The notes beneath the pieces were generated by a model. That model was not told where the DNA came from and made no database searches. It saw only the letters and a list, made by a program, of their open reading frames with translations. This document shows positions 37,495 through 49,044 of a stretch of 64,000 nucleotides of DNA, piece by piece (position 1 is the stretch's first letter; each line of letters starts with the position of its first letter). The translations under genes and the position numbers were made by a program. The stretch is from an uncultured Actinomycetes bacterium (GTDB lineage Bacteria; Actinomycetota; Acidimicrobiia; Acidimicrobiales; Microtrichaceae), in contig CAIYGQ010000174.1 of NCBI GenBank assembly GCA_903925745.1, forward strand, positions 1 to 64,000, written 5' to 3'.

Positions 37495-37926
37495 TCAGTC
37501 CCGACCGCGGACCACGACGACCGGGCAGTGGGCGTGGTTCACGCAGTAGGTCGTGACCGAGCCGAGCAGCAACCCGACGAACCCGCCGTGGCCGCGGGAA
37601 CCGACGACGAGCAGGTCGGCGTCCTCGGACAGCGCGATCAGCCGTTCCCCCGGATGCCCCTCGAGCGACTCGACCGACACGTCGAGCCCGTCCAACAGCC
37701 CAGCCGAGGACGTGGCGTCGACCGCCGCTCCGAGCATCGTCTCGGAGGCCGCCCTGAGGTCGTCGGGGTCGGGTGCGGCGACCTCGTAGCCGGTGCTCAT
37801 CAGCGGCGTCGTGAAGGCGCCGACGACCCGGATCGACGCGCCCCGCAGTCGCGCCTCCGCCGCCGCCCACCGCAGCGCCTCGAGTGAGTGCTCCGAGCCG
37901 TCCACTCCCACCACGATCCCGGCCAT
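37495..37926 (-). CDS. Universal stress protein (UspA family)
   Basis: 143 residues from ATG 37926, preceded by GGAGG. A single Usp domain: IVVGVDGSEHSLEALRWAAAEA at the start and the ATP-binding GSRGHGGFVGLLLGSVT near the end, so it is of the ATP-binding subclass. The ATG overlaps the stop of the upstream CCA-adding enzyme by one base (TGATG), so the two are coupled. Confidence 0.92.
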   Translation of the reverse strand: MAGIVVGVDGSEHSLEALRWAAAEARLRGASIRVVGAFTTPLMSTGYEVAAPDPDDLRAASETMLGAAVDATSSAGLLDGLDVSVESLEGHPGERLIALSEDADLLVVGSRGHGGFVGLLLGSVTTYCVNHAHCPVVVVRGRD

Positions 37927-39407
37927 CAGGTCCTCCTGTCCGTGTCCTCGGCCCCGTGGGCCCCGTACCACTCGTCCAGGTCGGCGAGTGCCGTGTCCCG
38001 GTCGACCGGTCCCCGCTCGAGTCGGAGTTCGAGCAGGTGCGCGAGCGCCCGCCCGACGACCGGTCCCGGGCCGATGCCCAGGTGCTCCATCACGTCGGCG
38101 CCGTCCAGGTCCGGACGGATCGAACGCACGGCCTCGGCCTCCTGGAGGTCGGCGATCCGCTGTTCGAGTTCGTCGATCCGGCGCCCGAGCGCCGCCGCCT
38201 TGCGCTGGTTGCGGGTCGTGCAGTCCGCACGAGTGAGGGCGATCAGGTCGTCGAGCAGCGGGCCGGCATCACGCACGAAGCGCCGGACCGCGGAGTCGCT
38301 CCACCCCATCTGGTACGTGTGGAACCGCAGGTGGAGGTACACGAGCTGCGTCACGTCGTCGACCATCTGGCGGGAGAAGCGCAGCGCCTTCATCCGGTCG
38401 CGGGTCATGCGGGCACCAACGACCTCGTGGTGGTGGAACGACACCCCCTTCGGTCCGACCGACCGGGTCTTCGGCTTGCCGAGGTCGTGGAACAGGGCCG
38501 CCAACCGCACCCGGAGCCGACGCTCGGACTGGGCCACCACGGCGATCGTGTGGGTGAGCACGTCCTTGTGACGGTGGATCGGGTCCTGTTCGAGCCGCAT
38601 GTCGGGCAGCTCCGGCAGGAACGTCGCCGCCAGGCCCGTGTCGCCGACGAACCACAGGCCTGCGGTGGGATCGGGGACGACCACCAGCTTGCAGAGCTCG
38701 TCCCGGATCCGTTCGGCCGACACGATCTCCATGCGGTCCAGGCCGGCGCGCACCGCCTCGACCAGGTCCTCGGTGGGCCGCAGCCCGAACCGGGCGATGA
38801 ACCGGGCGGCCCGAAGCATCCGCAGCGGATCGTCGGCGAAGGACTCCTCCGGCGACAGCGGCGTGCGCAGGACCCCTGCGTGCAGGTCGGCCAACCCGTC
38901 GTAGGGGTCGATCAGTGTCGGATCGGGGCTGGTCACCTCCAGCGCCATGGCGTTGACGGTGAAGTCGCGGCGGCTCAGGTCGTCGAGCACGTCGGTGCTG
39001 AACGCGACCTCGGGCTTGCGGCTGTCCGGACGGTAGGCCTCGGCGCGGTGGGTCGTGATCTCGATGTGGCGGTCCCCGAGCCGGACCCCGATGGTCCCGA
39101 ACCGCTCGCCGGTGGTCCACAGGGCGTCGACGACGGGGCCGACCAGCTCCTTGATCCGTTCGGGTCGGGCGTCGGTGGTCAGGTCGACGTCGTGCCAGCC
39201 CGCCGCGACGGACTCGGGGGAACCCGGCCCGGCGTCCACGACCGTTGGTTCCGGGGAATCCGCCCCGGCGACCCCGCCGGTCCCGTCGTCGGCGAACAGG
39301 TCGCGGACGCTCCCGCCGACCAGGTACAGACGGTGGCCGGCGGCGCCGACGACCTCGGTCAGCGGTGCGACCTGCTCGATCAGACGTCGCACGCGCTCGG
39401 GACCCAC
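37926..39407 (-). CDS. CCA tRNA nucleotidyltransferase / poly(A) polymerase family
   Basis: 493 residues from GTG 39407. The class II nucleotidyltransferase head has LVGGSVRD and HDVDLTTDA, the RRDFTVNAMA motif, RMLRAARFIARFGL, and a C-terminal HD domain (HKDVLTHT ... LAALFHDLGKPKT). It adds or repairs tRNA 3' CCA; tRNA-Ile in this window lacks an encoded CCA. An extra ~30 residues rich in Gly/Ala/Pro separate GGSVRD from DVDLTTDA, where homologues have a short turn. The gene matches mycobacterial pcnA in position. Confidence 0.93.
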   Translation of the reverse strand: MGPERVRRLIEQVAPLTEVVGAAGHRLYLVGGSVRDLFADDGTGGVAGADSPEPTVVDAGPGSPESVAAGWHDVDLTTDARPERIKELVGPVVDALWTTGERFGTIGVRLGDRHIEITTHRAEAYRPDSRKPEVAFSTDVLDDLSRRDFTVNAMALEVTSPDPTLIDPYDGLADLHAGVLRTPLSPEESFADDPLRMLRAARFIARFGLRPTEDLVEAVRAGLDRMEIVSAERIRDELCKLVVVPDPTAGLWFVGDTGLAATFLPELPDMRLEQDPIHRHKDVLTHTIAVVAQSERRLRVRLAALFHDLGKPKTRSVGPKGVSFHHHEVVGARMTRDRMKALRFSRQMVDDVTQLVYLHLRFHTYQMGWSDSAVRRFVRDAGPLLDDLIALTRADCTTRNQRKAAALGRRIDELEQRIADLQEAEAVRSIRPDLDGADVMEHLGIGPGPVVGRALAHLLELRLERGPVDRDTALADLDEWYGAHGAEDTDRRT

Positions 39408-39552
39408 GGCCGCAGCGTACCGGCGGGCGGGCGCAGCGGACTCCAGCGACCGTGGTGCCGGGCGCGGCCCGCGGCACCCGGGGCCACGACGGAGCGTCCA
39501 CCGGCCCGTACGCTCTGGGGTCGACGCCGCCCCCGGCGCCACGCGAGACACC

Positions 39553-40287
39553 ATGACCTCCAGAGCCGCCACCTCCCGAGCCACCCTGTCGGTGGGCCGC
39601 GACCGATACCGGATCGGTCCGTGGCACGCCGACGCTTCGATCGCGTACCTGGCGCTCACGCCCGACACCGTCCGCGTCAGCGATGACAGCCTGCGCTCCT
39701 GTGTGGACCGGCTCGTCGCCGCCGGGTACACGTCGGTGATCACCTCGGCGCTCCATCCGGACGAGACCGGTCCGTTCGCCCGGCTCGGATTCGAGGAGTT
39801 CGACCGGCTGCGCGTCCTGGCCGTCGACCTGGACCGGATCCGACCGACGCGACCGGCGATTCCCCAGGGGGTGCGGCTCCGACGGGCCCACCGGCGCGAC
39901 CGCGTCGCCGCCCTCACCGTCGACCACGCCGCCTTCCCCGAGTTCTGGCGACTCGACGCCGAGTCCATGCGGGACGCGGAGTCCGCGACCCCGGCGGTCC
40001 GGTTCCGGGTGGCCGACGCCGGCGGGCGGATCGTGGCCTATGCGATCACCGGACGGAGTGGACCCCAGGGCTTCCTGCAGCGACTGGCGACGGATCCATC
40101 CGTCGCCGGCCGGGGCCTGGCGACCGCGCTCGTCCACGACGCGGTCAGGTGGGCGTCACGCCACCGGTGCCGTCGACTGCTCGTCAACACGCAGGTCGAC
40201 AACGAGCGGGCGCTGCGGCTCTACCGGCACCTGGGCTTCGAGCTCACCCCCAGCGACCTGGTCGTCCTGACGAGACGGCTGCGGTGA
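39553..40287 (+). CDS. GNAT-family N-acetyltransferase
   Basis: 244 residues from ATG 39553. The C-terminal GNAT domain shows motif A, LQRLATDPSVAGRGLATALVHDAV (acetyl-CoA-binding RGLAT), and motif B, NTQVDNERALRLYRHLGFEL. The N-terminal ~110 residues resemble a degenerate second GNAT half. The acceptor is unknown. Its stop overlaps the next gene (GTGA). In mycobacteria a Nudix gene (mutT4) occupies this position. Confidence 0.85.
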   Translation: MTSRAATSRATLSVGRDRYRIGPWHADASIAYLALTPDTVRVSDDSLRSCVDRLVAAGYTSVITSALHPDETGPFARLGFEEFDRLRVLAVDLDRIRPTRPAIPQGVRLRRAHRRDRVAALTVDHAAFPEFWRLDAESMRDAESATPAVRFRVADAGGRIVAYAITGRSGPQGFLQRLATDPSVAGRGLATALVHDAVRWASRHRCRRLLVNTQVDNERALRLYRHLGFELTPSDLVVLTRRLR

Positions 40288-42464
40288 CCCCGTCACCCCG
40301 GTGGTGGGCGACGGCCGTCGCCGTGATGGTCGCCGTCACGTCCCTGGTCGCAGCGGGGACGGTCTCGGACCACGTCGGGGCCTCCCCGTCCCCGGCGACC
40401 ACGACGGCCCAGGGTGGCGACGAGGACGGCCCGGCCCGGGTGCCGCTCGACCTCTCCTTCGTCAGTCCCTTCGTCTCCCCGCAGGGCGCCTTCGAGCTGC
40501 GGTTCGCCCCCACCATCGCCGTGCCGACCGACGCGACGATGGAGGTCCGGATCCATCGTCGACTGAGCAGCGGCTCCGGCCTGCGCGCCGCCGTCGCCCG
40601 CGTCGCCGAGGGTGGATCACCGGGATCGGTGCTGGCGGGCCCCATCCGCATCCCCCCGGCGCTGCTCGGCAACCCCGCCGCCGGGTGGACGGTGCGCCTG
40701 GAGGTGTCGAACTCGACGAACACCCCCGCGCCGGCGGTGTTCGTCCCCGACGACGGCATCCACCCCGTCACGGTCGACCTGATCGACGGCCGCGGGTCGA
40801 CCATCTGGGAACGGACCGTGTTCATGGTTCGGCCACCGGAGAACCCACCGGTCGACCGGACGGGCGCGCCGGCTCGGACCACGGTCACCATGGCACTCGG
40901 CCTCGACGGGCCGCCGGCCCTCGGTCCCGAAGGTGAGGCGGTGATCGGCGACGACCTCCTGTCGACCCTCGGTGACGTGGCGGGCCTGCTGGAGGCGGTC
41001 CCCGAGGCACCCCTGTCGCTCGCCATCAGCCCGAACCTCCTCTCGGGCTCCAGCCGATCGGGCACCGTCACCGCGACCGACCTGACCTCGGCGCTGCAAC
41101 GACCCGGGCTCGCCGCCCGGACGCTCCGACGCACCGACGTCCCCCTCGACGTCGGTGGGATCATCAACGCCAACGGACTCGACGTGATCCAGGACGAGCT
41201 CACCATCGGCAGCAGGGTGGTCGAGACCGAGACGCTCCGCCCCCCCATCGACCACACCTGGCTACTCGACGACACGGTCACGCGCGAGTCGCTGCCCGCA
41301 CTGGCGGCACTCGGCACCCGCCGGGTCGTGCTGCCGGCGGATCGGCTCGTCCTCCCCGAGGGCACGGACCCCGCCACGGCTCGGAGCCGGACGATGGTCC
41401 TGGGGGGCGATGGTCCCGACACGTCGGAGAACCCGTCGGACGGACTGCTGACCGTCGTGGCCGACGACCCCATCCTGGGGCTCGCCACGCTGGATCCGGA
41501 TGCCGATCCGGGCACGGTCGCCAACCGGGTCAGCACCGAGCTGAGTGCGGACTGGTTCACTGCGGTCGGCGAGGGTCCCGATTCCTTCCCGGGCCCGCAG
41601 TCGGTGCTCTTCGTCCCACCGCAACTCGACCCGGCGGTGCTGCTCGCGCTCATCCCGGCGCTCACCGGCGCCGGTCCCCTGTTCGCCGACGCCGAGGCCC
41701 CGCCTCCACCGGCCGGTCCCGTCGAGGGCGACTACCTGACCGCGTCGCTGGCCCCGCGCACCCCCCAGGACCAGGCCGCGGCGATCGCCGAGTACCGGGC
41801 CTCCCGCACCACGGTCGTCGGCGTCCGCAGCGTGGTGGGACCCGTCGAGGGACAGGTCCGGACGTGGGACCTGGTGAACGCCCAGACGATGACCCGGGGG
41901 CTGGACCCGGGACTCCGGCGGGCCTCCCACGACGCGATCGAGGTCGGGTCACGAACGCTGCTCGACCAGATCGAGGCGCCACCGGAGCGCAAGGTGGTGC
42001 TGACCAGCCGGGACGCCACCATCCCGCTCCGGTTCCGCAACGGGCTCGACTATCCGGTCGACGTCGGCCTGCGCGTCAGGAGCAGCCGACTCGAGCTGCC
42101 GGACGGTGAGCGACGCGTCGTCCGACTCGTGCCCGGTGACAACCTGGTCGACCTGCGGGTCACCGTCCGGGCGCCGGGCGAGTCGGTCGTCAGGGTCGAC
42201 GTGACCTCACCCGACGACTCGGTCGGGATCGACTCGGTGCGCGTCCCGGTCCAGGCATCGACGATCTCCGGTGTCGGCGCCGCCCTGTCGATCGCGTCCC
42301 TCGTCGTCCTGGCGTGGTGGTGGCTGGTGACGGCGCGACGGCGACGCCGCCAGGGTGTCCTCGAGGGAGGCACCCATCCGAGCACCGCCGGATCCGGGGA
42401 CGACCGGGACGAGCCGCCACCACCGCAACGGGTCGGCGACGGTAGCGTCGCAGAAGGTGGATGA
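40284..42464 (+). CDS. DUF6049-like large secreted, membrane-anchored protein
   Basis: 726 residues from GTG 40284. A signal peptide (WWATAVAVMVAVTSLVAAGTV), a long extracellular region with beta-sandwich-like segments, and a C-terminal membrane helix (ISGVGAALSIASLVVLAWWWLVTA) followed by a basic cytoplasmic tail. It corresponds in position and architecture to the mycobacterial gene between mutT4 and mviN (Rv3909, recalled). Function is unknown; the setting suggests the cell envelope. It is coupled to the GNAT gene by GTGA and overlaps the kinase gene by 8 bp. Confidence 0.8.
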   Translation: MTPSPRWWATAVAVMVAVTSLVAAGTVSDHVGASPSPATTTAQGGDEDGPARVPLDLSFVSPFVSPQGAFELRFAPTIAVPTDATMEVRIHRRLSSGSGLRAAVARVAEGGSPGSVLAGPIRIPPALLGNPAAGWTVRLEVSNSTNTPAPAVFVPDDGIHPVTVDLIDGRGSTIWERTVFMVRPPENPPVDRTGAPARTTVTMALGLDGPPALGPEGEAVIGDDLLSTLGDVAGLLEAVPEAPLSLAISPNLLSGSSRSGTVTATDLTSALQRPGLAARTLRRTDVPLDVGGIINANGLDVIQDELTIGSRVVETETLRPPIDHTWLLDDTVTRESLPALAALGTRRVVLPADRLVLPEGTDPATARSRTMVLGGDGPDTSENPSDGLLTVVADDPILGLATLDPDADPGTVANRVSTELSADWFTAVGEGPDSFPGPQSVLFVPPQLDPAVLLALIPALTGAGPLFADAEAPPPPAGPVEGDYLTASLAPRTPQDQAAAIAEYRASRTTVVGVRSVVGPVEGQVRTWDLVNAQTMTRGLDPGLRRASHDAIEVGSRTLLDQIEAPPERKVVLTSRDATIPLRFRNGLDYPVDVGLRVRSSRLELPDGERRVVRLVPGDNLVDLRVTVRAPGESVVRVDVTSPDDSVGIDSVRVPVQASTISGVGAALSIASLVVLAWWWLVTARRRRRQGVLEGGTHPSTAGSGDDRDEPPPPQRVGDGSVAEGG

Positions 42465-44019
42465 GACCCGAGCCGGCACGAACCCCGGCGCCCCGATCAC
42501 GTCGGCCAGCGCGGGGCTGTCCGGGCTGGTCCTGGCCAGCCGCTACCGGCTGGACCGACTGATCGGCTCCGGTGGCATGGCCCAGGTCTGGGAGGCCACC
42601 GACACCGTCCTGGCGCGCCGGGTCGCGGTCAAGCTGCTCCACCCGCACCTGGCGGCCGACCCGCAGTTCGTCCAGCGGTTCCGGCAGGAGGCGAAGGCAG
42701 CCGCACGGATCAACGACCCGGGTGTGGTCGGCGTGTTCGACACCTGCAGCGACCAGGGCCACGAGGCGATCGTGATGGAGCTCCTGGAGGCCACGACGCT
42801 GCGGGACCTGATCGACGAGCGGGGCTCGCTCGACGCCGCCACCACCGAGCGGATCGGGCTCCGGGTGCTCGACGCCCTGGAGGCGGCCCACCGGGCCGAC
42901 CTGGTGCACCGCGACATCAAGCCCTCGAACATCCTCCTGTGCCGTGACGGCCGAGTGAAGCTCGCCGACTTCGGGATCGCCGTCGCCGACGGACAGACCC
43001 AGCTCACCCAGGAGGGTTCGCTGGTCGGTACGGCCACCTACCTGGCCCCGGAGCAGCTCCAGCACCAGGACCTCGACGGGCGGGCGGACCTCTACTCACT
43101 CGGCGTCGTGCTCTACGAGTGCCTCACGGGACGCAGCCCGTTCGAGGGCGACACCGCGGCGGCCGTCGCCCTCGCCCGTCTCCACACTCCACCTCTCGAC
43201 CCCCGGCAGCTCCGCGTCGACGTGCCGGCCCACCTGGCGGAGGTCCTGATGGTGGCACTGTCGGTCGACCCGGACCACCGCTTCGCCTCGGCGGCCGACT
43301 TCCGGGCGGCGCTGCTCGGCGGGAGCGTGCACATCCCCGGTCCTCCGACGGGCTTCGAGTCCGACGCCCTGGTGGACCTCCACGACGACGACCTGGAGTC
43401 GTTCACGTCGTCCGAGCGCGGCTGGCTCCTCCCGGCGATGCTGATCGTGCTCGTCGGCGCCGCCCTCACGGTCGCCGGACTACTCGTCCGGGAGTCACGC
43501 GTGGAGGAACCGGTGGCCGCCCCCGGATCCAGCCTCCCGAGCGTCGAGCTCGAACCGCTGGCCATCGCGCGGGTCGGCACGTTCGACCCTCAGGGCAGCG
43601 GCACCAGGGGCGAGAACGACGGTGACGCCCCCAACGTCGCTGACGGCGAGCCGGGGACCGGGTGGCGGACCGAGCTCTACGACGAGCGCGGGTTCTTCGG
43701 GTCCAAGACCGGAGTCGGTGTCGCCCTCGTCCTCGAGTCCAGGTCGCTCGTCGACCGGGTGCGGATCCAGTCGAGCGATGACGGGTGGAGCGGGTCGATC
43801 TACGTGATCGACGCCGAGTCGACCGATGCGATCGACCTGGGCAACCTGGTCCCGGCCGCCCAGGTGGACGACGTGCGCGGCACCCTGGAGGTCGACACCC
43901 GCGGAGCGCCCGGACGCCTGGTCCTGTTGTGGATCACCCAGCTCGGCGATCCGACCGACGGGCGGCACAGCGTGCGGATCGACGAGATGTCGGCCCGCGG
44001 CCGACCCGCCCGGGGGTGA
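42457..44019 (+). CDS. Membrane serine/threonine protein kinase with extracellular discoidin-like domain
   Basis: 520 residues from GTG 42457. A complete PknB-type kinase domain: Gly loop GSGGMAQV (37-44), Lys59, helix-C Glu78, catalytic HRDIKPSN (Asp153, Asn158), DFG (171-173) and APEQ. One membrane helix (~323-344) leads to an extracellular domain of ~170 residues with a discoidin/galactose-binding look (NVADGEPGTGWRTELYDERGFFGSKTGVGVALVLE). This matches the kinase-TM-extracellular part of the mycobacterial MviN fusion at this locus, but with catalytic residues intact and without the MurJ part. Confidence 0.9.
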   Translation: MDETRAGTNPGAPITSASAGLSGLVLASRYRLDRLIGSGGMAQVWEATDTVLARRVAVKLLHPHLAADPQFVQRFRQEAKAAARINDPGVVGVFDTCSDQGHEAIVMELLEATTLRDLIDERGSLDAATTERIGLRVLDALEAAHRADLVHRDIKPSNILLCRDGRVKLADFGIAVADGQTQLTQEGSLVGTATYLAPEQLQHQDLDGRADLYSLGVVLYECLTGRSPFEGDTAAAVALARLHTPPLDPRQLRVDVPAHLAEVLMVALSVDPDHRFASAADFRAALLGGSVHIPGPPTGFESDALVDLHDDDLESFTSSERGWLLPAMLIVLVGAALTVAGLLVRESRVEEPVAAPGSSLPSVELEPLAIARVGTFDPQGSGTRGENDGDAPNVADGEPGTGWRTELYDERGFFGSKTGVGVALVLESRSLVDRVRIQSSDDGWSGSIYVIDAESTDAIDLGNLVPAAQVDDVRGTLEVDTRGAPGRLVLLWITQLGDPTDGRHSVRIDEMSARGRPARG

Positions 44020-44100
44020 CCCGATGAGGACCCAAACGACGAACCGGGGACGAACCGGAATCGCCGCCGGGGGGTGACCGGGCCCTCTAGGCTCCGGCCG

Positions 44101-44427
44101 ATGTCGAACATCCCGGGCAACGAGCACCCGAACGGAGGCCCGCCCGCGGGTGGGTCCGACTGGACCGACCAGGTCACGGACCTGATCGTCGACTCCGTCG
44201 ACAAGGTCCGCGCCCGCACCACCGGACCGCTCCTCGACCTCAGCCGGGCCGGGGTCCTGGCCCTCGTCGCCGTGATCGTCCTGGTCCCGGTGATCATCAT
44301 CGTCACCGTCGGGCTGACCCGCTTCCTGCACTGGCTGCTGCCCGGCGGGATCTGGGTGTCCTACACCGTGATGGGCCTCCTGTTCGTGCTGCTCGGGGCG
44401 TTCCTCTGGAGTCGACGACGCGACTGA
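44101..44427 (+). CDS. Small two-helix membrane protein
   Basis: 108 residues from ATG 44101. A hydrophilic Gly/Pro-rich N-terminus, an amphipathic segment (WTDQVTDLIVDSVDKVRARTTGPLLDLS), two transmembrane helices (~57-77 and ~84-103) and a short basic end (WSRRRD). I do not recognise a named family; small membrane proteins of this type occur beside trxB in related actinobacteria (recollection, unverified). It sits between the kinase gene and trxB on the same strand. Confidence 0.7.
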   Translation: MSNIPGNEHPNGGPPAGGSDWTDQVTDLIVDSVDKVRARTTGPLLDLSRAGVLALVAVIVLVPVIIIVTVGLTRFLHWLLPGGIWVSYTVMGLLFVLLGAFLWSRRRD

Positions 44428-44503: not shown

Positions 44504-45466
44504 GTGACCGACGACGTCCGAAACGTCATCGTGGTCGGCTCCGGCCCAGCGGGCCTGACCGCCGCCATCTACACCGCCCGCGCATCCCTGGATCCGCTCG
44601 TCATCGAGGGGGAACCGTCCTCGACGAGCGACCAGCCGGGTGGCCAGCTGATGCTCACCACCGAGGTCGAGAACTTCCCGGGGTTCCCAGAGGGAATCAT
44701 GGGTCCGGAGCTCATGCAGTCGTTCCGGGACCAGGCCGAGCGGTTCGGCGCCGAGATCGTCACGGCCAAGGTCACCCGCCTCGACCTGAAGACCTCCCCG
44801 TTCGGGGTGTGGGTGGGCGGCACGGACGGCGAACCCACCCACCGGGCCCGGTCGATCATCATCGCCACCGGGGCGTCCTCGCTGATGCTCGGCCTCGAGG
44901 CGGAACGACGCCTGATCGGCCACGGCCTCTCGACGTGTGCGACCTGCGACGGGTTCTTCTTCCGCGACCAGGACATCTGCGTCGTCGGTGGCGGCGACTC
45001 GGCGATCGAGGAGGCCCTGTTCCTCACCCGCTTCGCCAGCTCGGTCACGGTGATCCACCGACGCGACACGCTCCGGGCCTCGAAGATCATGCAGGAGCGG
45101 GCCTTCGCCAACCCCAAGCTCAGCTTCCTGTGGAACACCGTGGTTGACGACCTGATCGGCGAGGAACAACTCGAGGGCGTGGTCACCCGCGACGTGGAGA
45201 GCGGGGAGGTGACGACGCATCCGTTCACCGGCGCGTTCGTCGCGATCGGCCACCGGCCGAACACCGACCTGTTCGTCGGCCAGTTGTCACTGAAGGACAA
45301 CGGCTACCTGCGGACCTTCGACGACCGGTCCCACACCAGCGTGGACGGAGTCTTCGCCTGTGGCGACGTCCAGGACGACTGGTACCGACAGGCGATCACG
45401 GCGGCGGGCAGCGGGTGCATGGCCGCGATCGACGCCGAGCGCTGGCTGGAGCGCATGGGACACTGA
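44504..45466 (+). CDS. trxB: Thioredoxin reductase
   Basis: An NADPH-dependent FAD enzyme that keeps thioredoxin reduced. 320 residues: FAD motif VIVVGSGPAGLTAAIYTARA, redox pair CATC (Cys145, Cys148) in STCATCDGFFFRDQ, NADPH motif VVGGGDSAIEEALFLTRFA and the C-terminal GVFACGDVQDDWYRQAITAAGSG. The GTG start is preceded by GAGGAG. trxA follows at 133 bp, as in the mycobacterial trxB2-trxC order. Confidence 0.97.
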   Translation: MTDDVRNVIVVGSGPAGLTAAIYTARASLDPLVIEGEPSSTSDQPGGQLMLTTEVENFPGFPEGIMGPELMQSFRDQAERFGAEIVTAKVTRLDLKTSPFGVWVGGTDGEPTHRARSIIIATGASSLMLGLEAERRLIGHGLSTCATCDGFFFRDQDICVVGGGDSAIEEALFLTRFASSVTVIHRRDTLRASKIMQERAFANPKLSFLWNTVVDDLIGEEQLEGVVTRDVESGEVTTHPFTGAFVAIGHRPNTDLFVGQLSLKDNGYLRTFDDRSHTSVDGVFACGDVQDDWYRQAITAAGSGCMAAIDAERWLERMGH

Positions 45467-45599
45467 GCGTTCCCTCGGTCCCGCAACCGGTCGGAAATGC
45501 AACCGCCGTCCGCGGGGTTGTGTCGCTGGCACCCCGGAGTTCCGGGTGGCGCGAGAATGGGTCGATCGGTCGACGACCCCGACCCGGAAAGGCCTCGAC

Positions 45600-45920
45600 A
45601 TGTCAACCTTCGTCCTCGACGACGCCACCTTCCACGAGGAGATCGGCTCCTCGGACCTGCCGGTCCTGGTGGACTTCTGGGCCGAGTGGTGTGGTCCGTG
45701 CAAGATGATCGCCCCCACGCTGGAGGAGATCTCGGTGGAGCACCAGGAGTCGCTGCGGATCGCCAAGGTGAACGTCGACATCTCACCCGATATCGCACGA
45801 GAGTTCAACGTGATGAGTATCCCCACCATGATCGTTTTTCGTGATGGGGAGGAGGCGGCCCGGATCGTCGGGGCCAAGGCCAAGGCGGCCCTGCTCGACG
45901 AACTGTCCCCGTTCATCTGA
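45600..45920 (+). CDS. trxA: Thioredoxin
   Basis: 106 residues from ATG 45600 (GGAAAGG upstream). Active site WCGPC (Cys31, Cys34) in VDFWAEWCGPCKMIAPTLEEIS and the cis-Pro loop MSIPTMIVF. It is reduced by the adjacent TrxB and supplies electrons to ribonucleotide reductase, methionine sulfoxide reductase and similar enzymes. The ORF-track start at 45360 is within trxB. Confidence 0.97.
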   Translation: MSTFVLDDATFHEEIGSSDLPVLVDFWAEWCGPCKMIAPTLEEISVEHQESLRIAKVNVDISPDIAREFNVMSIPTMIVFRDGEEAARIVGAKAKAALLDELSPFI

Positions 45921-45991: not shown

Positions 45992-46981
45992 ATCACCCTC
46001 TCGTCCCTCCCACTCCAGCCTGGTGACACGGGCGACGATGTCGCCGACCTCCAACGGCGCCTCGCCGCCCACGGGGCCCACAGTGGTGACCGGGCCGGCC
46101 ACTACGGACCGGGAACGTCCGACGCGGTCCGACGGTTCCAGGAGCGTCGGTCCCTGCCCGTCACCGGGGTCTGCGACGTGACCACGTGGTCGATGCTCGT
46201 GGAGGCCGGGTACTCCCTGGGCCACCGACTCCTCTGCCTGCAGCGGCCGATGCTCCGCGGCGACGACGTGGCCGACCTCCAGTTGAGGTTGAGCCATCTG
46301 GGGTTCGACCCGGGGCGGATCGACGGCATCTTCGGGCCGCAGACCGAGCAGGCGGTGAGTGCGTTCCAGCGGAACACGGGGCTGGTGTGCGACCGGGTCT
46401 GCGGCGACGACACCGTCGAGGCCCTCGACCAACTCGGGCGGGGAGGCGAGCTGACCTCGGTGACCGTGGTCCGCGAGGCAGAGCGGCTCCGGACCAGCAC
46501 CCGCCGGCTGGAACACCTCATCGTCGCCCTCGGGACCGACGGGAGCGAACTGGCCGGGGCGCTGGCCGACGAGGTGCGGTCGATCCTCCACGAGGTGGCG
46601 GCCCAGGTATCGGTCCTCGACGGCGACTGGTCCGCCCAGGCGACCTACTGCAACGACCTCCGCGCCGACCTCTACGTCGGCCTCGAGATCCTGCCCGACG
46701 TCCGCGTCGACGCCGCCCACTTCGGCGTGGAGGGCTTCGAGTCACTGGGCGGTCGGAGGCTCGCCGAGGCGATCATCGAGGAGCTCCCGGCGGTACCCGG
46801 GTGGGGGAGCGGAACCGTCTCCGGTCGCCGATCGCCGATCCTCCGAGAGACGCGCTCCCCCGCGGTGCTCCTCCGGATCGGAGCCCCGGAGGTGGTCGAC
46901 CAGCAGCACGGCATGATCGCCACCGCCGTGGTCCGAGCGGTGCAGCAGTGGCCGGAGCTGGTCGCAGCTCCATCGACCTGA
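45992..46981 (+). CDS. CwlM-like protein: two peptidoglycan-binding domains plus amidase_3-like domain; ATC start proposed
   Basis: The frame opens after TGA at 45974, and no ATG, GTG or TTG occurs before 46178, yet those codons encode a second good peptidoglycan-binding repeat (LQPGDTGDDVADLQRRLAAHG ... DAVRRFQERRSLPVTGVCDVTT). GGAG at 45981-45984 lies 7 nt before an in-frame ATC (45992), proposed as the start (329 residues). Residues ~76-145 form the second repeat. The C-terminal part resembles amidase_3 (FGVEGFESLGGRRLAEAIIEEL ... SPAVLLRIG), but the zinc ligands look incomplete. Mycobacterial CwlM at this locus regulates MurA rather than cutting cell wall. Confidence 0.8.
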   Translation: MTLSSLPLQPGDTGDDVADLQRRLAAHGAHSGDRAGHYGPGTSDAVRRFQERRSLPVTGVCDVTTWSMLVEAGYSLGHRLLCLQRPMLRGDDVADLQLRLSHLGFDPGRIDGIFGPQTEQAVSAFQRNTGLVCDRVCGDDTVEALDQLGRGGELTSVTVVREAERLRTSTRRLEHLIVALGTDGSELAGALADEVRSILHEVAAQVSVLDGDWSAQATYCNDLRADLYVGLEILPDVRVDAAHFGVEGFESLGGRRLAEAIIEELPAVPGWGSGTVSGRRSPILRETRSPAVLLRIGAPEVVDQQHGMIATAVVRAVQQWPELVAAPST

Positions 46982-47079: not shown

Positions 47080-48006
47080 TCACTCAGCGATGATGAGCCG
47101 GTAGATCCGCTCCAGGTCCTCGAGGTTCGCGAAGTCCACGACGACCTTGCCCCGCCGGGCGGACATCGAGATCGACACCTTGGTGTCCAGACGCTCCGCC
47201 AGCAGCTCCTCGAGCTCCAGCAGTCCGGGGGGGCGGAGTCGAGGGCGGGGCCCGTCGTCCCCCGGGTCGGTCGACCCGGCCCCGGATTCAGCTTGAGCGC
47301 CCGCTCCCGCTCCTGCGCCGAGGCCCTGCTCCAGTTCGAGTCGCTCCCGCACCAGTTGCTCCAGGTCCCGGACCGACAGGCCCTCGGCGACCGCACGCCG
47401 GGCCAGCGCCTCTTGGTAGGCCCGATCCGGGTGGCCGAGCAGGGCCTTGGCGTGCCCTGCGCTCAGGAGTTGCTCCCCCACCAACTTCTGCACGGCCGGC
47501 GTCAACTGGAAGAGCCGGAGCAGATTGGCCACCGACGCCCGACTCCGGCCGACCCGCTGCGCGACCTGCTCCTGGGTGTAGCCGAAGTCCTCGATCAACT
47601 GCTGGTAGGCAGCGGCCTCCTCCAGCGGGTTCAGGTCCTGACGGTGCAGGTTCTCCACGAGCGCCTGCTCCAACGAGGAGACGTCCTCGACGGAGCGCAC
47701 CACCACCGGCACCTCGGTCAGGTTCGCCCGCTTCGCAGCCCGGAGCCGACGTTCGCCGGCGATGAGTTCGAACCCATCGTCCACCGGACGGACCAGGAGG
47801 GGTTGGAGCACGCCCAGCTCACGGATGGAGTCGGCCAGACCGACGAGGGTCTCCTCGTCGAAGGACTTCCTCGGTTGGAGCGGATTGGCCCGCACCTGCT
47901 CGATCGGAACCAGTTGGTACCCGGCGATGCCCGGTTCGCCCCCCGCCTCTGAGGCGGCGGGAATCAGCGAGGTGATCCCCCGTCCCAGTCCTCCCTTACG
48001 AGCCAC
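47080..48006 (-). CDS. parB: Chromosome partition protein ParB
   Basis: A CTP-dependent DNA clamp that loads at parS. 308 residues: VPIEQVRANPLQPRKSFDEETL, the CTP-binding LIAGERRLRAAK and ALVENLHRQDLNPLEEA, a helix-turn-helix (YTQEQVAQRVGRSRASVANLLRLFQL), a Gly/Ala-rich linker (LGAGAGAGAQAESGAGS) and a C-terminal dimer domain. The start is GTG 48006, overlapping the end of parA by 11 bp. Three parS sites lie about 1 kb away, upstream of parA. Confidence 0.97.
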   Translation of the reverse strand: MARKGGLGRGITSLIPAASEAGGEPGIAGYQLVPIEQVRANPLQPRKSFDEETLVGLADSIRELGVLQPLLVRPVDDGFELIAGERRLRAAKRANLTEVPVVVRSVEDVSSLEQALVENLHRQDLNPLEEAAAYQQLIEDFGYTQEQVAQRVGRSRASVANLLRLFQLTPAVQKLVGEQLLSAGHAKALLGHPDRAYQEALARRAVAEGLSVRDLEQLVRERLELEQGLGAGAGAGAQAESGAGSTDPGDDGPRPRLRPPGLLELEELLAERLDTKVSISMSARRGKVVVDFANLEDLERIYRLIIAE

Positions 48007-48862
48007 CTGACACCTCCCTGGCGAGCTCCCGGTACGCCACGGCCCCCCGGGAACTCGAATCGAACACCGTGATCGGCTGGCCGAACGAGGGGGCTTCGGA
48101 GAGGCGGACGTTCCGGGGAATCGTGTTCCGGAACACCTTCGAGCCGAAGTGCCCCCTCACTTCGTCCTTGACCTGCTCGGCGAGCTTCGTCCGCCCGTCG
48201 TACATCACCAGGACCAGACCGGTGATCTCCAGTTCCGGATTGAGGTGGGCCCGCACCAGCTCGACGTTGTTGGTGAGCAGCGCCAGCCCCTCCAACGCGT
48301 AGTACTCGCACTGGATCGGGACGATCACCTCCCGGACGGCCGACAGTCCGTTCACCGTGAGTAGCCCCAGCGACGGAGGGCAGTCCACGAGCACGTAGTC
48401 GTAGTCGTCCAGCACGCCGTCGATGGCCCGCTTCAGGCGGGTCTCCCGGCTCATCATCGACACCAGTTCGACCTCGGCCCCCGAGAGGTCCCGGCTCGCC
48501 GGGGCCACGAAGAGGTTGCGGACCTCGGTCGGCTCGACGCAATCCTCCATGGGGAGACCGTGGATGAGGACGTCGTAGGTTGTGTGTTCGAGAGAGGACG
48601 GATCGATGCCCAGGCCGGTTGTGGCGTTGCCCTGAGGGTCCAGGTCGACGACCAGCGTCCGGAAGCCCAACTCGGCCAACGCCGCCCCCAGGTTGACGGC
48701 CGTCGTCGTCTTGCCCACTCCGCCCTTCTGGTTCGCGATCGCGATGACCCTGGGCAGGTCCGGGATCACCCGGGGTGCGTCCGCAGCCTGGTGGACACCA
48801 GTGCCGGGCGGACTCGGCGACGGCGCTTCGGCGTCCGGGGACGGAACCGGCAGGTCGCTCAT
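47996..48862 (-). CDS. parA: Chromosome partition ATPase ParA (Soj)
   Basis: 288 residues from ATG 48862, chosen because AGGAG lies 5 nt upstream; an adjacent ATG at 48865 is the alternative. After a Pro/Ser/Ala-rich N-terminus of ~35 residues comes deviant Walker A ANQKGGVGKTTTAVNLG (46-52), DLDPQGNATTG, and VDCPPSLGLLTVNGL. It moves ParB-parS complexes over the nucleoid. The ORF-track start at 49033 would translate through two parS sites (reading FHVEH) and is rejected. Confidence 0.97.
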   Translation of the reverse strand: MSDLPVPSPDAEAPSPSPPGTGVHQAADAPRVIPDLPRVIAIANQKGGVGKTTTAVNLGAALAELGFRTLVVDLDPQGNATTGLGIDPSSLEHTTYDVLIHGLPMEDCVEPTEVRNLFVAPASRDLSGAEVELVSMMSRETRLKRAIDGVLDDYDYVLVDCPPSLGLLTVNGLSAVREVIVPIQCEYYALEGLALLTNNVELVRAHLNPELEITGLVLVMYDGRTKLAEQVKDEVRGHFGSKVFRNTIPRNVRLSEAPSFGQPITVFDSSSRGAVAYRELAREVSGGS

Positions 48863-48954
48863 CATCGCTCCTGGGGAGAAGGGGCCCGGGTCCACCGGGC
48901 GGGGGGCGTCATCCTCGCCGCTGGACCTGGCCAGGTCAAGGGTTTCCGGCGGTG

Positions 48955-48984
48955 CCGGTCGTGTTCCACGTGGAACACGACCGG
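48955..48984. other. parS: parS site 1 within a 30-bp perfect palindrome
   Basis: TGTTCCACGTGGAACA (48962-48977) matches the parS consensus TGTTTCACGTGAAACA except for a symmetric T-to-C change, and is extended by CCGGTCG/CGACCGG to a 30-bp perfect inverted repeat. Confidence 0.93.
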
Positions 48985-49006
48985 ACGCTGGATCCGTCAG
49001 CCTGGA

Positions 49007-49024
49007 ATGTTCCACGTGGAACAT
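49007..49024. other. parS: parS site 2
   Basis: The same 16-bp core TGTTCCACGTGGAACA at 49008-49023; symmetry extends by one base pair on each side only. It lies 46 bp from site 1 and 47 bp from site 3, measured core start to core start. Confidence 0.93.
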
Positions 49025-49044
49025 CGGCCGCACCGCCGGCGGTG

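Follow-up and report, generated by a model that had tools for sequence, protein, structure and literature searches.

The gene at positions 42457..44019 of the window, by which we mean the whole stretch of 64,000 nucleotides analysed here from an uncultured member of the Acidimicrobiales related to IMCC26207, probably encodes a single-pass receptor Ser/Thr kinase, an unfused and catalytically intact member of the MviN-pseudokinase family that likely serves as a wall-glycan sensor; its activity, ligand and substrates we infer. It is an early and informative form of a known module, and a real, conserved gene rather than a replacement for MurJ.

In mycobacteria, PknB phosphorylates the pseudokinase tail of MviN, upon which FhaA is recruited (PMC10166564, PMC12599244), and CwlM binds either MurJ or FhaA depending on its own phosphorylation (PMC6180346). 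The extended form of MviN has been proposed to be confined to arabinogalactan-bearing organisms (PMC10166564), and in 2023 a gene for a “protein kinase family protein” was noted to lie downstream of the unextended mviN (PMC10166564, S6 Fig. legend); in all likelihood it is the gene described here, in the same chromosomal place. Copies downstream of mviN in Streptomyces, Nocardioides and the Pseudonocardiales are degenerate, whereas the window copy is intact and murJ is gone from its locus. The MviN pseudokinase belongs to the pseudokinase family ActPs3, which is described by the complete degradation of its catalytic motifs together with a deletion in the activation loop, and whose other members are said to lack a carbohydrate-binding domain (PMC12599244). 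ActPs3 includes a same-locus homologue of the window kinase, but the latter shows neither the loss of catalytic motifs nor the activation-loop deletion. For the intact members, the shared ectodomain, the order of catalytic loss and fusion, and the relocation of murJ, no account was found in the literature searched, mostly non-subscription papers. The features of the locus are as follows.

37926..39968, minus strand: pcnA, left border of the conserved neighbourhood
40149..42464, plus strand: DUF6049 protein (PF19516, 2.2e-10), overlapping the kinase start by 8 bases
42457..44019, plus strand: gene for the receptor-type Ser/Thr kinase (520 aa), orthologous to the kinase-TM-ectodomain part of MviN but unfused
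42529..43317, plus strand: cytoplasmic kinase domain, residues 25-287, with K59, E78, HRD153, N158 and DFG171 intact
43432..43488, plus strand: single transmembrane helix, residues 326-344, where the lone hydrophobic stretch peaks
43558..44016, plus strand: extracellular domain of CBM32/discoidin-like type, residues 368-520, with homology to MviN’s C-terminal domain
44074..44427, plus strand: small membrane protein, conserved between the kinase and trxB, with a weak Holin-X match below the cut-off
44504..45466, plus strand: trxB, thioredoxin reductase
45360..45920, plus strand: trxA, thioredoxin, open reading frame as listed, with the domain in residues 84-182 only
46178..46981, plus strand: CwlM-like protein, sharing 34% identity (E 1.4e-25) with the CwlM that mycobacteria have in this position
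47080..49033, minus strand: parB and parA, right border of the conserved neighbourhood

The first-pass annotation had named pcnA, a CwlM-like protein and parA as the neighbours of this gene, and all three are found, accompanied by trxB, trxA and parB. On the left, the minus strand carries genes for a PBP, a DUF5318 protein and a Usp protein besides pcnA; the plus strand then reads GNAT, DUF6049, kinase, small membrane protein, trxB, trxA and the CwlM-like gene, beyond which lie parB, parA, gidB, jag and yidC and, farther away, dnaA and dnaN. Given the restricted extent of the thioredoxin domain, the true start of trxA should lie inside the listed frame. The same gene neighbourhood is seen across the phylum, and the window kinase stands between DUF6049 and trxB-trxA-cwlM-parB, just as MviN of the Rv3910 type does.

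The kinase gene starts with a GTG codon ahead of the DUF6049 stop (42464) and, as the first-pass annotation had read it, encodes only a kinase, a transmembrane helix and a discoidin-like domain. The protein kinase match in Pfam (6e-46) covers residues 30-275, and the signature of an active Hanks-type Ser/Thr kinase (VAIK Lys, helix-C Glu, HRD, Asn, DFG) is complete. The five catalytic residues named in that reading (Lys59, Glu78, HRD Asp153, Asn158 and DFG Asp171) are all present, and K59, E78, H151-R152-D153, K155, N158, D171-F172-G173, T184 and E199 are invariant in 34/34 aligned orthologues of the order, across which full-length orthologues occur; such invariance points to retention by selection, not chance. 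T184 aligns with the activation-loop threonine (VTQT) of a mycobacterial PknB, with whose activation loop that of the window kinase aligns across no more than a 2-residue gap. Against five orthologues of the same genus, dN/dS (NG86) is 0.10-0.20 for the kinase domain and 0.08-0.32 for the ectodomain. A chance or wrongly framed reading of 42457-44019 was rejected on these ratios and on the conservation in relatives. The residue pattern fits a functioning kinase kept by purifying selection, which would be expected to be catalytically active. A conserved SFxRSERRWL-like motif precedes the transmembrane helix in the window’s family, and no conserved phospho-threonine of the FHA type was recognised in the variable juxtamembrane segment.

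An alignment of 35 ectodomain sequences served for both an AlphaFold2 model and a profile. The model of the C-terminal domain (residues 368-520; mean pLDDT 94.3) is a predicted beta jelly-roll, and its best matches among solved structures are CBM32 domains and other jelly rolls of the discoidin/DOC type (Foldseek E about 2e-6; TM 0.59-0.69 against a CBM32). Several of these fold matches are not sugar binders, and CBM32-like folds also serve protein-protein contacts. The profile found matches in 146/297 sampled Actinomycetota genomes, including open frames of 1184 to about 1500 residues in which MurJ, a kinase-like domain and the ectodomain are joined. Its matches to these MviN fusions have E values of about 1e-15 to 1e-22 (Z=1e5); for one fusion (L142), whose hits to 3oun, 3uqc and 3otv, structures of the MviN pseudokinase of M. 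tuberculosis, lie at about 1e-126, the ectodomain E value is 2.4e-17 (Z=1e5). These matches bear out the suspected kinship of the outer domain with that of Rv3910. The domain is widespread in the locus family, in contrast to what has been stated for the other members of ActPs3 (PMC12599244). The ectodomain tree (149 columns) is poorly resolved and requires at least 10 changes between intact and degenerate kinases, 4 of them forced by supported branches, a count that is inexact because the N-terminus of one sequence labelled degenerate (L193) is truncated or misaligned. Other Actinomycetota families also have kinase-TM-ectodomain genes with intact residues outside the MurJ locus (L159, L161, L163, L165, L169, L197), and some of these families keep the locus copy as well.

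Rv3910 of Mycobacterium and the window protein thus share their chromosomal neighbourhood, the order of kinase, transmembrane helix and ectodomain, and a homologous ectodomain after one transmembrane helix; they differ in that the window protein has no MurJ part, keeps its kinase residues and has murJ elsewhere in the genome. Pfam found no MurJ fused to the kinase frame, and none lies between it and DUF6049. The flippase part, held in the earlier reading to be gone, is indeed absent from both protein and slot, but a good MurJ (282 bits) is encoded on another contig (C21) of the window’s genome, by which a loss of MurJ from the genome is rejected. In the MurJ tree this gene groups with the order’s syntenic MurJs in a single clade (support 99); several rows labelled there as lying away from the locus (L039, L054, L056, L060, L061, L062) are actually syntenic genes. 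The window’s genome carries a second, divergent MurJ-like gene (C321:4716-5975), common to several families of the order.

Sister families settle whose place the kinase holds. In nine relatives murJ comes straight after DUF6049, and contigs that reach farther read DUF6049-murJ-degV-kinase, which shows the kinase to be in its own place, downstream of murJ; the idea that it occupies or replaced MurJ in the slot is rejected by this synteny. Six families (f3, f6, f7, f12, f13, f19) have DUF6049-degV-kinase, and in the window’s family the kinase directly follows DUF6049 in 19/19 genomes in which both genes were found; no DegV gene was found in the window’s genome, which is about 86% complete. These gene orders indicate that murJ, and then degV, left from in front of the kinase in the window’s family. 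The relocated murJ genes of this family and three others (f1, f3, f6, f7) have obg, proB and a pspA-like gene as common neighbours, consistent with a single relocation. Some further peculiarities were seen in the slot itself. In one genome (G037; L062/L075) the slot MurJ groups with the Nitriliruptoria type and not with its order, possibly a foreign replacement, and in Allonocardiopsis and Murinocardiopsis (L255, L277) two consecutive MurJ-like open frames precede the pseudokinase. Two loci titled Bifidobacterium breve (L208, L209) are of the Acidimicrobiia type and very like that of IMCC26207, and probably derive from mislabelled metagenome bins.

Across the loci of named genomes, the unfused kinase is intact in Nitriliruptorales, Egibacter and Acidimicrobiales and degenerate in Streptomyces, Nocardioides, Aeromicrobium, Modestobacter and the Pseudonocardiales, and a degenerate kinase is fused to MurJ in Mycobacterium and Nocardia. 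In the Pseudonocardiales the motif reads LG.DHPQR, much like LSIDHPSR of the mycobacterial fusion, a likeness which suggests that catalytic loss came before fusion in that lineage; overall, catalytic loss apparently preceded fusion. The catalytic residues were lost separately in another order of the window’s class (f25, f26, UBA6912). Fusions of MurJ, pseudokinase, transmembrane helix and ectodomain are also present outside the Mycobacteriales, in Raineyella antarctica and on one metagenome contig (L281:4641-8441 and L280:5022-8462), each in a single open frame (1266 and 1146 codons, respectively). The MurJ of both groups with Nocardioides and Aeromicrobium (98) and not with Mycobacteriales, so that the Raineyella-type fusion looks independent. 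Raineyella (Propionibacteriaceae) is not known to make arabinogalactan.

The first-pass annotation had left two histories open, an ancestral state before fusion and a secondary loss of MurJ with regained or retained activity. The unfused, intact kinase is better supported as the ancestral, pre-fusion state, since such kinases are found in several separate lineages, among them Nitriliruptoria and Acidimicrobiales, a distribution which disfavours a regain of activity. That an ancestral MurJ-kinase fusion was split, or that MurJ was lost and kinase activity regained here, would agree with the absence of murJ from the locus in the window’s family, yet we consider it very improbable: murJ and an intact kinase are separate in other families of the order, in Nitriliruptoria, in Egibacter and in f28, f51 and f58, it is implausible that K, E, HRD, N and DFG were restored together in every one of those lineages, and MurJ persists elsewhere in the window’s genome. 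The kinase could also be an ordinary paralogue of the PknB/PknA type, its MviN-like outer domain acquired through domain shuffling. Its closest solved sequences are PknA and PknB, its kinase domain is 43-47% identical to those of PknB, with which it shares the receptor-type topology and the aligned activation-loop threonine, and a capture of this kind seems to have occurred once, in a mycobacterium-like genome (G183; L145:5740-7656), where a second protein combines an intact kinase of another kind with an MviN-like ectodomain whose place in the tree is among the mycobacterial MviN ectodomains. In the kinase tree, however, the PknB-like sequences form their own clade (97/80) without the locus kinases, as the first-pass annotation had anticipated for the window kinase. 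The locus kinases group together at 85/92, a moderate support, with one stray paralogue inside (L286), and their monophyly is neither shown nor rejected by the AU test (p 0.08). The window kinase furthermore has a different outer domain and no PASTA repeats, and reaches 347.7 bits against the cut-off of 450 for the NCBIfam PASTA-kinase model NF033483, matching in the kinase part only; its genome has a PknB-like kinase of its own (L282). On tree and domains, and with the locus and partner domain conserved throughout the phylum, we rejected the assignment as a PknB paralogue, and the domain-shuffling origin is quite unlikely.

How an unfused, intact kinase of the MviN family would work can be sketched by analogy. 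The outer domain may bind a glycan of the envelope (be it peptidoglycan, lipid II or some other sugar of the wall), and the kinase would autophosphorylate on its activation loop (T184) and then modify cell-wall regulators encoded nearby or in trans, such as the CwlM-like protein, MurJ or an FhaA-type reader, and the modified regulators would tune precursor export. In the Mycobacteriales, the module apparently lost its catalysis before it became fused to MurJ, and it is PknB that phosphorylates it there. We propose for the window kinase a role as a sensor of envelope glycan that phosphorylates components of the PknB/FhaA/CwlM/MurJ circuit, of which an FhaA_N protein is encoded on the same contig as PknB in the window’s genome; with murJ gone from the locus, the functional tie to MurJ is less direct here. 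The presence of both FhaA_N and PknB in this genome would equally suit an intact kinase that is mainly a scaffold, being phosphorylated and recruiting FhaA rather than phosphorylating substrates, which is how the homologous mycobacterial module works (PMC12599244, PMC10166564). We regard such a role as unlikely, since a kinase that did not catalyse would hardly be expected to keep each of its catalytic residues strictly conserved throughout the order. In its fullest form, our hypothesis holds that the MviN pseudokinase had as its ancestor a wall-sensing receptor kinase that stood on its own and is active to this day in Acidimicrobiia and Nitriliruptoria, and that in the window’s lineage this kinase acts in trans after murJ left the operon, senses wall glycan and phosphorylates the CwlM/MurJ/FhaA circuit, so that lipid II export would receive input from a second receptor kinase in addition to PknB; this full scenario is possible but tentative.

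With these relatives it becomes possible to test where a well-known pseudokinase regulator of wall synthesis in mycobacteria came from, as some living lineages have a separate, active-looking kinase, others a separate dead kinase, and two the fusion. The fusion in Raineyella questions the restriction of the extended MviN to arabinogalactan-bearing bacteria (PMC10166564), and the widespread ectodomain questions the claim that the other ActPs3 pseudokinases lack a carbohydrate-binding domain (PMC12599244). These relatives also suggest that the outer domain is the long-conserved part of this module and its likely sensor.
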